The notes under the pieces were generated by a model, which was not told where the DNA came from, ran no database searches, and was given only the letters and a program-made list of their open reading frames with translations. Shown one piece after another: positions 17,926 to 43,108 of a stretch of 46,047 nt of DNA (position 1 is the stretch's first letter; every line of letters begins with the position of its first letter). This stretch comes from Bacteroidales bacterium (GTDB taxonomy: Bacteria > Bacteroidota > Bacteroidia > Bacteroidales > Bacteroidaceae), in contig JAQXRG010000016.1 in the NCBI GenBank assembly GCA_029218405.1, forward strand, positions 1-46,047, read 5' to 3'. A program made the position numbers and the translations under genes.

Positions 17926-17999
17926 TGGACTATGGTGTAATGGTAACACAACAGATTCTGGTCCTGTTTTTCCTGGTTCGAGTCCGGGTAGCCCAACCA
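17926..17999 (+). tRNA. tRNA-Gln (anticodon CUG, CCA encoded)
   Basis: The fold is acceptor 17926-17932 with 17989-17995, D-stem GTGT/ACAC (17935-17938 with 17946-17949), anticodon stem 17951-17955 with 17963-17967, and T-stem 17972-17976 with 17984-17988 around TTCGAGT. The discriminator is A17996 and CCA is encoded at 17997-17999. The loop TTCTGGT places anticodon CTG at 17958-17960, reading CAG for glutamine. The 5' U1 (T17926) is usual for tRNA-Gln. Two A-C mispairs are visible: position 4-69 in the acceptor (A17929, C17992) and position 31-39 in the anticodon stem (A17955, C17963). The gene has its own promoter and terminator. Confidence 0.92.
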
Positions 18000-39208: not shown

Positions 39209-39214
39209 CCATCC

Positions 39215-39243
39215 TAACAGAAAGATATCTAACAGAAAGATAT
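39215..39243 (+). repeat. tandem duplication covering a translation start
   Basis: TAACAGAAAGATAT occurs at 39215-39228 and again at 39230-39243, period 15 bp. The second copy runs into the ATG at 39242. The A/G-rich part is the likely ribosome-binding region, so the ribosome site is doubled. Confidence 0.85.
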
Positions 39244-39691: not shown

Positions 39692-41911
39692 TTATTCCTG
39701 CACCTCCGATGTCTGCCATCCGCCCATGACCGATGATTGCCAGGTAGCCGAGGCGGAAAGCGAGGCCGCCTCGCGTACCAAGGTCACGGCATCTTCCAGT
39801 GCACAGGCGGTGGAAGCGATGGGCGACAGTCCCTTGCGTTCCTCCACCCAGTTCCGTTCCCAGGCGGCGAAGTCGAACGGCTGGCCGGTGCGCAGTTGTT
39901 CGAAGTAATGTTGCCAGCGGGGCAGGTAGTAGTCGCGCAGCAGACCCGACCAGATGCGGGCAGAATAGTCATCGACCGGTGGTCCCCATATCGTTACGAT
40001 ACGGCGGGCGTTCCGCTCATAATAGTCGGCCAGCGCATGGTTCTCTCCTGCACAGTGGCGGGCCCAGTCTATCCAGCGGGACAGGTTGTGGGTGGGATGT
40101 CCGGCCAGCAGGCGGTCGGTAGCTTGCATCCAACGTGCGAACCGCTCTTCAAGCGTACGGGCCTTTTCCTTTTCATCCATCAGATAGGTCTCTTCTATCT
40201 GCGCCGTCAGCTCTTCCATCTTGCCCCCCATGTAGGCGGCCGTCCATTCACGGAAGTCGGCTTCGAACAAGGGGCTTCCCTTCAGTTCGTGTGCGCCTTC
40301 TGCCAAGGCTTCCACACCGGCATAGAAGGCGGGTTGGGTCGCGATGCTGCCCTTGCGCACCCGTCCGGGGCGGAACTGCCAGTTATAGCGTGGATGGTCG
40401 GTGAAACTGCCATAGACTGAGGACAGCATCCCCTTCCAGAAGGACTGCAGGGCCGGGGTATAAGCACCGTAGCGGCTGGTGCAGTAGTTGGCGATCCACT
40501 GTTCCACATCCGTTTCTGTGCCGTTCCATCCGGCATCAGCCAGCAGTTCGTAGATGACTTCGTTGTTTTCGATGCCTTCTGGTGCCATGCCGAAGGCGGT
40601 GAGGCAGCCCCGGTTGGGTGAGGCGAGTGCCTCCAGATGGCCGTTCGCGTAGAAGGATAGCATGCCGGTCATGCCCGTCTTTCCACCCATGTTGGGGATG
40701 ACACTATATACCCACGGCTTGCCGAAGAAACCGGGATAGAACTCCCAGTTGACCTCGCTGTTCCAGAAACACTTGTTGTAGTCCACGGCCAGGTCGAGCA
40801 GCAGCATCTTGTCATCGGGCACACGGCTGAGCAGTGCCTGCAGGGTGGGAGCGTCCCAGATGTCGCGCTGGTAGCCGAACATCCATCCCTGCATTACCCA
40901 CACAGCATCGGGATTGCCCGCACGAATGGATTTATAGACCCGTTCGCCGTAAGAAGCCAGCAGCTCGTAGCGGCGCGGGTCTTCCTTGGGTGGGAAAGGA
41001 ATGTCCATCTCGTTGAAGCTGTCCACGATGTAGTGGCTGTTCTTGCCGAACTCCTTCTCCCATTCCTCGATGAACATCTTTCCGAGGGTGTGGAACAGCT
41101 CGTCCTCGGGTGAAAGCATCCAATTGTGAAACGCGCCACCCCACGAGGTCTCGGTCAGCTTCACATCTGGATAGAGCCGCTTCAGGGCTTGGGGTACAAA
41201 GCCGGCGAATCCGGGACAGATGGGGGTCATGCCGAGGCTGCGCATCCGGTCGAGGATGCGGTGCTGTAGGGCGATGGTCCGCTCGTGCCACTGTTCGGGC
41301 AGCGGACCATCGATGCCGCTGATGTTGCCCATGCGCATCCAGGGCAGATGGGCTGGACCCACGAAATACGCGGCGATTTCCTCATCACTCAGTCCCAGTC
41401 GCTTCCATACGCGGGCGGAGATGGCCTCGTTAGCCGTCAGGGCCAAGGGCATGTCGATGCCGTGCAGGGCCATCCAGTCGATTTCCTTTTCCCAGCGTTC
41501 CCAGTCCCAGTAGGGCATGGAGTAGCCATAGGTCACCACGTTGAAGTAGTAGTGGTGGGCGAAGGGGGATATTTTCATCCGGGTGCTGAACGAGGAGAGG
41601 GAGGCCGGTGCTGTCTCGCGGGTGCCGCTCCAGCTGTAAATGCCCAGTCCGTTCTGGCGGATGAAGTCATAAACACCTCGGCAGAGGGCCACTCCACTGC
41701 TCGCCTCGACGGTGAGCCGCTGTCCGTTCACCGACTGGCGGAACATGTCGCGTCCGTCCTGCTTGGCGGCAGGTTTCAGTTGCAGCCGTTCCGCCCATTG
41801 GGGAAAGGTTCGTTCGATGACCTCGCGGGCCGCTTTCATTTCCGTCCGTCGGGGCTGTGCGCTGACGGACAAGACTCCTGACAACAACAGGAGAAACAAT
41901 GTTTTTCTCAT
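39692..41911 (-). CDS. GH89 alpha-N-acetylglucosaminidase, exported
   Basis: A 739-residue enzyme of the NAGLU family, with signal peptide LFLLLLSGVLSVSAQ. An N-terminal small domain is followed by a TIM barrel: HHYYFNVVTYGYSMPYWDW near 119-137, WMALHGIDMPLALTANEA near 146-163, and SFNEMDIPF with likely acid/base Glu301. GMAPEGIENNEV carries the likely nucleophile Glu445. The C-terminal all-helical domain includes WWxP-like RIVTIWGPPVDDYSARIWSGL. It removes terminal alpha-GlcNAc, as found in gastric mucin or heparan. Its upstream region holds a 23-bp-period repeat array instead of a recognisable promoter, and the Rpn-type gene lies beyond that on the same strand. Confidence 0.95.
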   Translation of the reverse strand: MRKTLFLLLLSGVLSVSAQPRRTEMKAAREVIERTFPQWAERLQLKPAAKQDGRDMFRQSVNGQRLTVEASSGVALCRGVYDFIRQNGLGIYSWSGTRETAPASLSSFSTRMKISPFAHHYYFNVVTYGYSMPYWDWERWEKEIDWMALHGIDMPLALTANEAISARVWKRLGLSDEEIAAYFVGPAHLPWMRMGNISGIDGPLPEQWHERTIALQHRILDRMRSLGMTPICPGFAGFVPQALKRLYPDVKLTETSWGGAFHNWMLSPEDELFHTLGKMFIEEWEKEFGKNSHYIVDSFNEMDIPFPPKEDPRRYELLASYGERVYKSIRAGNPDAVWVMQGWMFGYQRDIWDAPTLQALLSRVPDDKMLLLDLAVDYNKCFWNSEVNWEFYPGFFGKPWVYSVIPNMGGKTGMTGMLSFYANGHLEALASPNRGCLTAFGMAPEGIENNEVIYELLADAGWNGTETDVEQWIANYCTSRYGAYTPALQSFWKGMLSSVYGSFTDHPRYNWQFRPGRVRKGSIATQPAFYAGVEALAEGAHELKGSPLFEADFREWTAAYMGGKMEELTAQIEETYLMDEKEKARTLEERFARWMQATDRLLAGHPTHNLSRWIDWARHCAGENHALADYYERNARRIVTIWGPPVDDYSARIWSGLLRDYYLPRWQHYFEQLRTGQPFDFAAWERNWVEERKGLSPIASTACALEDAVTLVREAASLSASATWQSSVMGGWQTSEVQE

Positions 41912-41921
41912 ATTTTCATTT

Positions 41922-42128
41922 TATAATAGGTTGTTCTTGTATCGTAACGACAGGCATTCTTGCACTGGAACAATAGGCATTGTAGTACCTTAACGACAGG
42001 CATTCTTGCACTGTCATGACTGCGGTTGTGATGGTCTGACGACTTCGTTCATGAGATGCTCACGAACGAAGTCGTCAGGGGGTCATGACTTCGTTCGTGA
42101 GGAGGTGACAATCCCATTCGTCAGGGGC
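41922..42128. repeat. array of 23-bp diverged units with inverted half-sites
   Basis: Eight consecutive units of exactly 23 bp start at 41945, 41968, 41991, 42014, 42037, 42060, 42083 and 42106; 41922-41944 matches in its second half only. Units 1 and 3 are identical. Across all eight, positions 3 and 6 are always A and positions 13 and 16 always T; position 4 is always a pyrimidine and position 5 a purine. Positions 1-7 follow TNAYGAC in most units. Positions 12-18 follow its reverse complement, KTCRTNA, best in units 4-8. Half-sites thus alternate in orientation every 11-12 bp. The last two units lie inside the 3' end of the Rpn-type gene. Confidence 0.8.
42036..42078. repeat. 20-bp-arm hairpin within the array
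   Basis: 42036-42055 and 42059-42078 are inverted copies with one A-C mismatch around a 3-base loop. The hairpin spans array units 5 and 6. A direct copy of most of the arm (GACTTCGTTCGTGAG) lies at 42087-42101. It sits just downstream of the Rpn-type gene and could act as its terminator, although no U-run follows on that strand. Confidence 0.75.
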
Positions 42129-43108
42129 GACGCGGATGAATGTTCCAGTGCTTTTATCTCTTGACGGGTGAGTCCGGAGGCTTGTGTGATGGTTTCTACC
42201 GGTACGCCGAGTGACAGGAGGTTGAGGGCTATCTCATACGCTTTCTGCTTGCTGCCTTCTTCCCGTCCCTTTGCCAATCCTTCCTCTCGTCCTTTCGCTA
42301 GTCCTTCCTCTCGTCCTTTGGCTAATCCTTTGGCCAGTCCTTCTTCCCGTCCTTTGGCCAGTCCCTTTGCCAGTCCTTTTTCTTCCGCCGAGTCGATGCA
42401 GTTCTTCAGGTCGCGGTAATGCTTCAGGCTGTCCTCGTACTCGTGTAGTTCGGCAGGGGTGAACTTCGAGACATCCGCCACCTGGAACAGCCGGTCAAAG
42501 ACCTTGTCGCGTAGCGCGTCCGGGCGTCGTTCCAGCCGGGAGAGGTTTTTCAGGGCGAAGAGCCACTTGTCGTAGAGGGTGACCAGCTCTTCCTCCTTCT
42601 TGTCGAACTTGGCTATTTCCACGTAGATGAACTCCAGCTTGTCGTAGAAGACGCGCCGCGTGCCCGTGTCGCAGAGCTTCACGTGGTGCCTGAGCTTCTT
42701 CGCATCGAACGCCGCCTCCTTCATCTCGTAGTTCAGGAGCGCGACGGTATAGACGGGGCTGAGGTGGTAGTCCCAGTGCTTCACCTTTGGTGCCTGCTCC
42801 CTGATGGGGAAGGTGGCGTAGAAAATGGACCTGTCCTTGAAATACTTCTGCGATGCGTTTTGCATCTCCACGATGAACTTCTCGCCGTCCGCTCCCTCAC
42901 AATAGACATCGAAAATGGCCTTTCGTTCCGTGTATAGGTCTCCTACATGCTCCGAGTTTCCGTAGCTCAGGTCCTTGACCACCTTCTTTCCGTTGAAGAG
43001 GCAGTTGAGGAAGTTAATCAGCAGTTCCTTGTTGGGAGCCGTTCCGAAAATTCGCTTGAAGCCGAAGTCGGTCAGCAAACTGATGTAGCGCTCTTCTGTC
43101 TGTCTCAT
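42083..43108 (-). CDS. Rpn-type PD-(D/E)XK nuclease/putative transposase
   Basis: A 341-residue protein of the recombination-promoting nuclease (Rpn) group. The N terminus (ISLLTDFGFKRIFGTAPNKELLINFLNCL) and the nuclease core (RKAIFDVYCEGADGEKFIVEMQ) are typical; IFDVYC and VEMQ supply the Asp and the ExQ active-site residues. Residues 245-285 are ten 4-residue units GLAK/GREE in a charged helix, and a helical tail with a predicted helix-turn (TITQASGLTRQEIKAL) follows. The last 15 or so codons and the stop come from the 23-bp array. Family members are linked to recombination and phage defence. No transposon ends were found. Confidence 0.88.
   Translation of the reverse strand: MRQTEERYISLLTDFGFKRIFGTAPNKELLINFLNCLFNGKKVVKDLSYGNSEHVGDLYTERKAIFDVYCEGADGEKFIVEMQNASQKYFKDRSIFYATFPIREQAPKVKHWDYHLSPVYTVALLNYEMKEAAFDAKKLRHHVKLCDTGTRRVFYDKLEFIYVEIAKFDKKEEELVTLYDKWLFALKNLSRLERRPDALRDKVFDRLFQVADVSKFTPAELHEYEDSLKHYRDLKNCIDSAEEKGLAKGLAKGREEGLAKGLAKGREEGLAKGREEGLAKGREEGSKQKAYEIALNLLSLGVPVETITQASGLTRQEIKALEHSSASPLTNGIVTSSRTKS
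42254..42376 (-). repeat. 12-bp coding repeats (GLAK/GREE) in the Rpn-type gene
   Basis: Ten 12-bp units encode GLAK or GREE in the order G-L-A-K twice, GREE, GLAK twice, GREE, then GLAK-GREE twice. Such expandable charged-helix repeats are common in Rpn-family proteins. Length may vary between strains by slippage or recombination. Confidence 0.85.

Follow-up and report, generated by a model that had tools for sequence, protein, structure and literature searches.

The 23-bp repeat array situated between an alpha-N-acetylglucosaminidase (NAGLU) gene and an Rpn-type nuclease gene is a single copy of a DNA element that is dispersed and mostly intergenic, and that takes the form of a rigid lattice whose 7-bp half-sites are related by dyad symmetry. 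The lattice period of 23 bp per pair of half-sites corresponds to about 2.2 helical turns, and we give roughly an even chance to the reading that the array is a cooperative platform for a putative dimeric DNA-binding protein. The window (the whole stretch of DNA that was analysed, 46,047 nucleotides) belongs to a genome of 2.71 Mb in 188 contigs that is 83% complete (G000). In total, 126 arrays with 656 units were analysed from seven genomes, representing four genera of one family, and the 23-bp lattice of inverted half-sites is common to all four genera.

The initial annotation had described eight units with an exact 23-bp step, of which units 1 and 3 are identical, and this description was borne out (41945 to 42128), as was the presence of A3, A6, T13 and T16, together with a pyrimidine at position 4 and a purine at position 5, in 8/8 units. 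Its half-site consensus was slightly overstated: by hand count TNAYGAC is found in 5/8 left halves and KTCRTNA in 4/8 right halves. Each unit consists of an imperfect 18-bp palindrome (7+4+7) and a 5-bp spacer. When the suggested autocorrelation against shuffled sequence was carried out, there was a clear excess at lag 23, with 102/184 positions identical compared to 46.3 +/- 5.9 expected (2000 dinucleotide shuffles, none of which reached the observed value). Identity at lag 46 is 96/161, all remaining lags from 5 to 59 are at or below 0.31, and each half of the array, taken alone, shows the 23-bp periodicity. A repeat within a protein is ruled out, as 23 is not divisible by 3. Coordinates of the array, its two classes of unit and its neighbours are given in the table. 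Elsewhere in the window, a tRNA gene at 17926-17996 is the sole Rfam match (gathering thresholds), and a perfect 15-bp tandem duplication (CTAACAGAAAGATAT) at 39214-39243 separates two genes.

Table. Features of the repeat array and its neighbours (positions in the window).
Feature	Position	Strand	Basis
Ninth unit, degenerate, in phase, at the left end of the array	41922..41944	.	TATAATAGGTTGTTCTTG retains T1, A3, T13, T16
Eight-unit array, exact 23-bp period	41945..42128	.	Sequence inspection and lag identity
Class A units, TAACGACAGGCATTCTTG type (reverse complement of CAAGAATGCCTGTCGTTA)	41945..42013	.	Unit comparison
Class B units, TCACGAACGAAGTCGTCA type	42014..42128	.	Unit comparison
Rpn-type PDDEXK_2 gene (neighbour, not part of the element)	42083..43108	-	Final ~14 codons and stop lie in array sequence
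Alpha-N-acetylglucosaminidase (NAGLU) gene (neighbour, not part of the element)	39692..41911	-	First clear unit ~33 bp upstream of its start

A blastn search of G000 with the window array uncovered additional arrays, among which the better matches have 70-74% identity. With that of the window there are 11 clear arrays, and L170 and L172 are weaker, which makes about 13 in total; each is a 23-bp series of imperfect 18-bp palindromes with 5 bp between them. The 11 clear arrays together comprise 82 units; A3 and T16 occur in 82/82, A6 and T13 in 81/82. Several of the arrays appear polar by eye; class A units, as in the window, are found at one end and class B units at the opposite end. Six arrays have a leader of ~130-150 bp beyond their class A end, and a seventh (L003) has part of it. 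Searching G000 for this leader returned 6 places, every one of them adjoining an array. The core motif of the leader, with at most one mismatch, is found in five places, each adjoining an array, and two mismatches add two more places, which is not above the reversed control. The array of L003 with its flank (L003:1380-1690) has no match in phage and plasmid collections at E 1e-5.

The numbers of arrays analysed are 13 in G000, 13 in G013, 6 in G119, 26 in G261, 17 in G362, 20 in G369 and 31 in G820; for G261, G362, G369 and G820 these are the arrays that were fetched, and further arrays exist. G820 was used in building no model. Two loci, L171 (weak) and L173 (only two units), were omitted from the counts, and weak matches in G210, G284, G379, G822, G823 and G840 lie outside the analysis. 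A sequence-only three-unit model (R1) matches at least 3/61 genomes of the genus of the window (G000 and G013 strong, G001 weak) and at least 9/399 genomes of the family, where the genome of the window, G119, G261, G362 and G369 are strong and four are weak. With a broader model (R2), at least 6/41 genomes in the genus of G362 are matched, three of them strongly, and none of 392 other genomes in the order (G000 alone among 393; 13 of several hundred candidates scored). The genome counts are lower bounds because the large searches, in the family and in the order, score few candidates per genome (13 of several hundred). Most relatives are without detectable arrays, the 3/61 of the genus including the genome of the window, and any function of the array is therefore dispensable. 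In G261 (L191-L196, L252-L271), half-sites of other classes (AGTGGA...TCCACT as well as CATTTCAGTTGG...) seem by eye to continue the arrays in ~23-bp steps, and several array copies in this genome are near contig ends.

The initial annotation had also suggested testing whether similar arrays lie beside Rpn-type genes in related genomes. Similar arrays do exist in other genomes, but a link to Rpn-type genes is not supported. The right end of the window array supplies the final ~14 codons and the stop (42083) of the Rpn reading frame. Most of the Rpn homologues among the matches listed align only to about residue 321/341, and the array therefore abuts the conserved part of the gene. On the other side, the NAGLU start is ~33 bp from the first clear unit, the unit lying upstream. 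The best 80 of 307 loci with Rpn relatives in other genomes were kept, with flanks of up to 3 kb (less at contig ends), and within the flanks scanned 0/80 carry an array; the top three-unit score at these loci is 0.9 bits, compared to 44-61 in four co-scanned arrays and a shuffled-locus maximum of 5.8. Moreover, PDDEXK_2 (PF12784) is not matched in the array-bearing genomes G261, G362 and G369. That the array might be the target or product of the adjacent nuclease is in keeping with two PF12784 genes of G000 (C16 and C155), which are within ~200 bp of arrays, and with an Rpn-like gene ~400 bp from the array of L005; set against the 80 loci and the three genomes without PF12784, this leaves the idea with almost no probability. 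The Rpn gene is a bystander, and a nuclease role is refuted as a general rule. Within the Rpn gene itself, in-frame 12/24/36-bp repeats (window 42255-42379) encode tandem repeats of the GLAKGREEG type before the C-terminus.

The position pattern of the lattice was analysed in two ways. With MAFFT, 54 three-unit windows picked by hand in six genomes could be aligned in 64 columns without a gap; A3, A26, T39, A49 and T62 are invariant, and the remaining A/T positions of the lattice are at 90% or above. In addition, units were redefined with positions 3, 6, 13 and 16 masked from the score, in order to remove selection by score. Under this masked definition 126/126 loci recover the array in the same place and phase, and the 659 units obtained have A3 in 636, T16 in 634, A6 in 537 and T13 in 515. 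Windows with a good masked score at array-free control loci (n = 1278) have A3 in 288, T16 in 295, A6 in 387 and T13 in 379. Thus, A3/T16 is the general rule, whereas A6/T13 is pronounced in G000, G013 and G261 but less so in the other genomes.

The centre of the palindrome (positions 7-12) differs between genera. It reads TCGCGA in 16/22 units of G119, AGCACT in 63/81 units of G369, 51/65 of G362 and 145/168 of G820, and is of the ATAC type in 83/116 units of G261; G000 and G013 have centres of several kinds, among which CAGGCA is commonest. In the genus of G362 the central dinucleotide is CA or TG in 346/357 units and CG or TA in 9.

Arrays scored here contain 3-11 units, and in the genus of G362, 59/68 arrays have 5 or 6 units at the score threshold used. 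In this genus the end spacers are distinct: the leftmost is ...TC in 33/68 arrays and the rightmost GA... in 31/68, compared to 11/153 each for inner spacers. Arrays were extended in 23-bp steps only (359 junctions). Past the array ends there are zero units at offsets 19-39, one at 40, one at 43 and three at 46. In 480 kb sampled from G820, 17/17 sites of at least 16 bits and 18/19 sites of at least 14 bits are inside arrays; the shuffled counterpart of this sample contains no site of at least 16 bits and one of at least 14 bits.

The mix of fixed and freely varying positions had been taken to speak against recent tandem duplication, and this mostly holds, since best matches within the same array and in other arrays are about equal, when equal numbers are compared, in five of the seven genomes. 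Identities (own versus other arrays) are 0.841 vs 0.806 in G119, 0.82 vs 0.858 in G261, 0.824 vs 0.826 in G362, 0.824 vs 0.805 in G369 and 0.861 vs 0.851 in G820. The exceptions are G000 (0.834 vs 0.795) and G013 (0.787 vs 0.721), in which units of an array are somewhat more alike. Similarly, identity of adjacent units exceeds that of units from other arrays in G000 (0.74 vs 0.59) and G013 (0.71 vs 0.60), and the difference is 0.05 or less in the four other genomes tested. The likeness of neighbouring units in G000 and G013 would fit some local duplication.

Arrays at shared loci were compared as 24 same-genus pairs and nine printed sets, all hand-chosen from arrays adjoining similar genes; 22/24 pairs are more than 65% identical, and the two that include L280 are only 51-54% identical. 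All 24 pairs align in phase, although this is partly forced by the lattice itself. Identity across the pairs is 0.82 in the best register and 0.62 in the next in-phase register, 19 pairs align without a shift, and when gaps are allowed 16 pairs stay ungapped within the array, while 8 require gaps there. Species of the genus of G362 have retained arrays at shared loci, and 11/12 of the G362-G820 pairs have the same register. Changes in these 12 pairs are unevenly spread over the unit. Per 64 comparisons there are none at positions 3, 11 and 16, 2 at position 8, 3 at position 12 and 4 at position 7, as opposed to 20 at position 2, 17 at position 4, 21 at position 15 and 18 at position 17, and spacer positions have changed in 8-14/52. 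Positions 3 and 16 have therefore changed in 0/128 cases, and most free positions and spacers in 15-33%. The overall identity of arrays is about that of their flanks, so that the whole array is not more conserved, and the evidence therefore lies in the position pattern. The masked-position counts and these position changes support the original suggestion of selection on a pattern of the DNA-binding type.

Half-sites arranged around a genus-specific centre could also be sites of a site-specific recombinase, with positions 7-12 as the crossover region, and CA/TG differences do switch in place in 14/47 compared units of the nine printed pairs. Four of these 14 switches, however, come from the single pair L283/L280, whose arrays are only 54% identical, and no larger inverted segment was seen by eye in the printed pairs. 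We know of no recombination-site layout that consists of dense 23-bp arrays, and a recombinase seems highly improbable.

Gene calls are crude, and the orientation and intergenic counts depend on them. By these calls, 38 arrays are located between convergent genes, 44 between tandem genes and 9 between divergent genes, and the closest gene end is a 3' end for 95/122 arrays with a called neighbour (60/86 if G820 alone represents its genus). The preference for 3' ends is found in five of the seven genomes. It is absent from the genus of the window, with 7 vs 6 arrays (3' vs 5') in G000 and 6 vs 7 in G013. No placement rule along the chromosome emerged from GC-skew samples of two G820 contigs, and the shared-neighbour comparison revealed no gene that recurs beside arrays across genomes. 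Both L159 and L162 of G013 adjoin HU-like genes and the same small protein family (names here and in the following are by sequence reading).

Loci common to genera are those of tsaE, YihY-like, response-regulator, PlsC-like and ABC-F-type genes, and by a rough estimate of chance overlap five such loci are only mildly unlikely. At tsaE loci (30 of 145 genomes with a match), 23-bp arrays are found only in G362 and G119, both of them already known. Other repeats, with a 22-bp period, are found near tsaE in G086, G171, G225 and G150 (L309, L311, L293 and L306), and those of G150 look palindromic by eye. The tsaE site may be a repeat hot spot. The change of centre at loci shared between genera is suggestive of co-evolution; as proof of co-evolution it is undercut by the possible tsaE hot spot and by the chance-overlap estimate.

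The initial annotation had considered a structured RNA array, transcribed beyond the end of the gene. In such an RNA a unit or a pair of units would form a hairpin. Indeed, 11/12 folds of array stretches, two of which are both strands of the window array, are better than those of dinucleotide shuffles (z from -2.3 to -6.9), the one exception having z 0.33, and in G000 the pairing of half-sites is above all 500 shuffles. In the other five of six genomes, however, half-site pairing is not above that of shuffled halves, and the real arrays fold no better than ones put together from units drawn at random within each genome (genome means of z from -0.18 to 1.56; 5/81 arrays rank 5 of 100 or fewer). 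Spacers flanking a unit are not complementary above shuffles, and at gathering thresholds Rfam gives no hit on the array. Apart from the pairing in G000, an RNA is thus not supported and is in our opinion very unlikely; the folding seems to be a side effect of a DNA pattern with dyad symmetry.

The absence of a conserved stem, with excess pairing in G000 alone, also bears on palindromes of the REP/BIME type mobilised by a RAYT transposase. The GTAG and CGTC families of REP/BIME are short imperfect palindromes that are dispersed and partly clustered (PMC3733652). The arrays resemble them in their gene-end placement in five of the seven genomes, in their alternating palindromes and in forming genus-specific families. 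Unlike REP/BIME, they have a fixed 23-bp lattice, no conservation of a hairpin, no lone strong sites within the 480-kb sample of G820 and no consistent RAYT. The Y1_Tnp domain (PF01797) is unmatched in G000, G013, G261 and G369, and in G119 and G362 it has one partial match each, barely above the cut-off. RAYT transposases do not track the arrays, and we regard this origin as extremely unlikely.

The statement that no described element has this design proved too strong. By length and placement, the closest known element is BrickBuilt of Porphyromonas gingivalis (Klein et al. 2015, PMC4596501), a 23-nt minisatellite within a miniature inverted-repeat transposable element (MITE) with IS5-type ends; strain ATCC 33277 has 19 copies, all intergenic. 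Its repeats are tandem and imperfect, with 0-6% indels within elements and no spacers, some copies have leader or tail flanks, and homologues are reported for P. gingivalis and P. gulae only (PMC4596501). Like BrickBuilt, the arrays described here are 23-nt tandem repeats in several intergenic copies per genome, as judged from crude gene calls and with the window copy overlapping a gene end. The consensus 23-mer of BrickBuilt is dyad-symmetric as well, and 8/2000 shuffles reach its symmetry. Nevertheless, this consensus (AGAYCATARTATCCTCTCRTRTG) is unrelated, since its mean identity in the best rotation and strand is 0.511 to the 656 units and 0.502 to shuffled ones. A literature search that covered few subscription journals found no title or abstract opening that describes the lattice.

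The main rival to a binding platform is a selfish minisatellite-bearing MITE like BrickBuilt, without host function, whose copies would be spread by a transposase acting in trans and whose 23-bp period would be a relic of the origin of the element. In its favour, G000 has block copies with conserved flanks, as do, judged by eye, G261 and part of G369, and the 6-31 arrays fetched per genome are compatible with the 10-20 copies cited for bacterial MITEs (PMC4596501). The 23-nt repeats, the intergenic copies and the dyad symmetry of BrickBuilt also count in its favour. By eye, many G261 copies have flanks in common, whereas no shared flanks are seen in G362. A neutral satellite, however, should not keep some positions fixed while others vary freely, and species of the genus of G362 keep arrays at the same loci. 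Terminal inverted repeats like GAGACCTTTGCA, searched for as exact patterns up to 900 bp from the array start, are found as one string, beside L265, so that BrickBuilt-like ends are near only 1/126 arrays. We consider a selfish element of this kind possible, but less likely than a binding platform.

The hallmarks of a binding array, namely fixed base positions, fixed helical phasing and free spacers, are present. Cooperative binding of a dimer is proposed because the half-sites are symmetric without a pairing constraint, certain A/T positions are fixed, phasing is kept, spacers are free and there are no single strong sites; the recovery of A3/T16 under the masked definition strengthens this reading. 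A dimeric or oligomeric DNA-binding protein would dock cooperatively along the lattice, with one dimer per 18-bp palindrome and contact between adjacent dimers over the 5-bp spacer. Such a protein would read the fixed A/T positions and the centre, and not the spacers, and the bound array might act as a gene-end or chromosome-structure site. Against a platform count the conservation of whole arrays, which is not above that of their flanks, the 8/24 pairs with gaps inside the array, the lack of a 3'-end preference in G000 and G013, the greater likeness of units within arrays of these two genomes, which weakens the reading, the scarcity of arrays among relatives, and the fact that A6/T13 is not general (537 and 515/659). 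No array-binding protein was identified. Since block copying is evident in some genomes, a role of the array in the spread of its own element is possible; copying together with the flanks would imply that the element has, or had, a means of spreading.

Half-site arrays to which centromere or replication proteins bind are known from ParR/parC, the omega heptads and plasmid iterons. Iterons are spaced by ~22 bp, and docking on phased inverted or direct half-sites is cooperative. These arrays belong to a single replicon and lie beside the gene of their own protein. The arrays of this family differ in having many chromosomal copies and no linked gene that could be found.

It may be that gene-end lattices, present genome-wide in some genomes of the family (31 fetched in G820), with about 5 palindromes and end spacers of their own, are bound by a cooperative putative protein whose centre specificity shifts by genus while the 23-bp lattice stays constant. 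They would then be a new kind of site for chromosome structure or for the insulation of transcription, an extended proposal that we advance tentatively and consider rather unlikely as a whole. If the arrays are binding platforms, they would constitute a class of repeated chromosomal site in several genera of one family, which belongs to the Bacteroidales according to the listed relatives. The fixed geometry and drifting centre would then offer a natural example of a shift in DNA-binding specificity at many sites simultaneously, and minisatellites like BrickBuilt would deserve to be looked at again as possible binding arrays and not as passive repeats.
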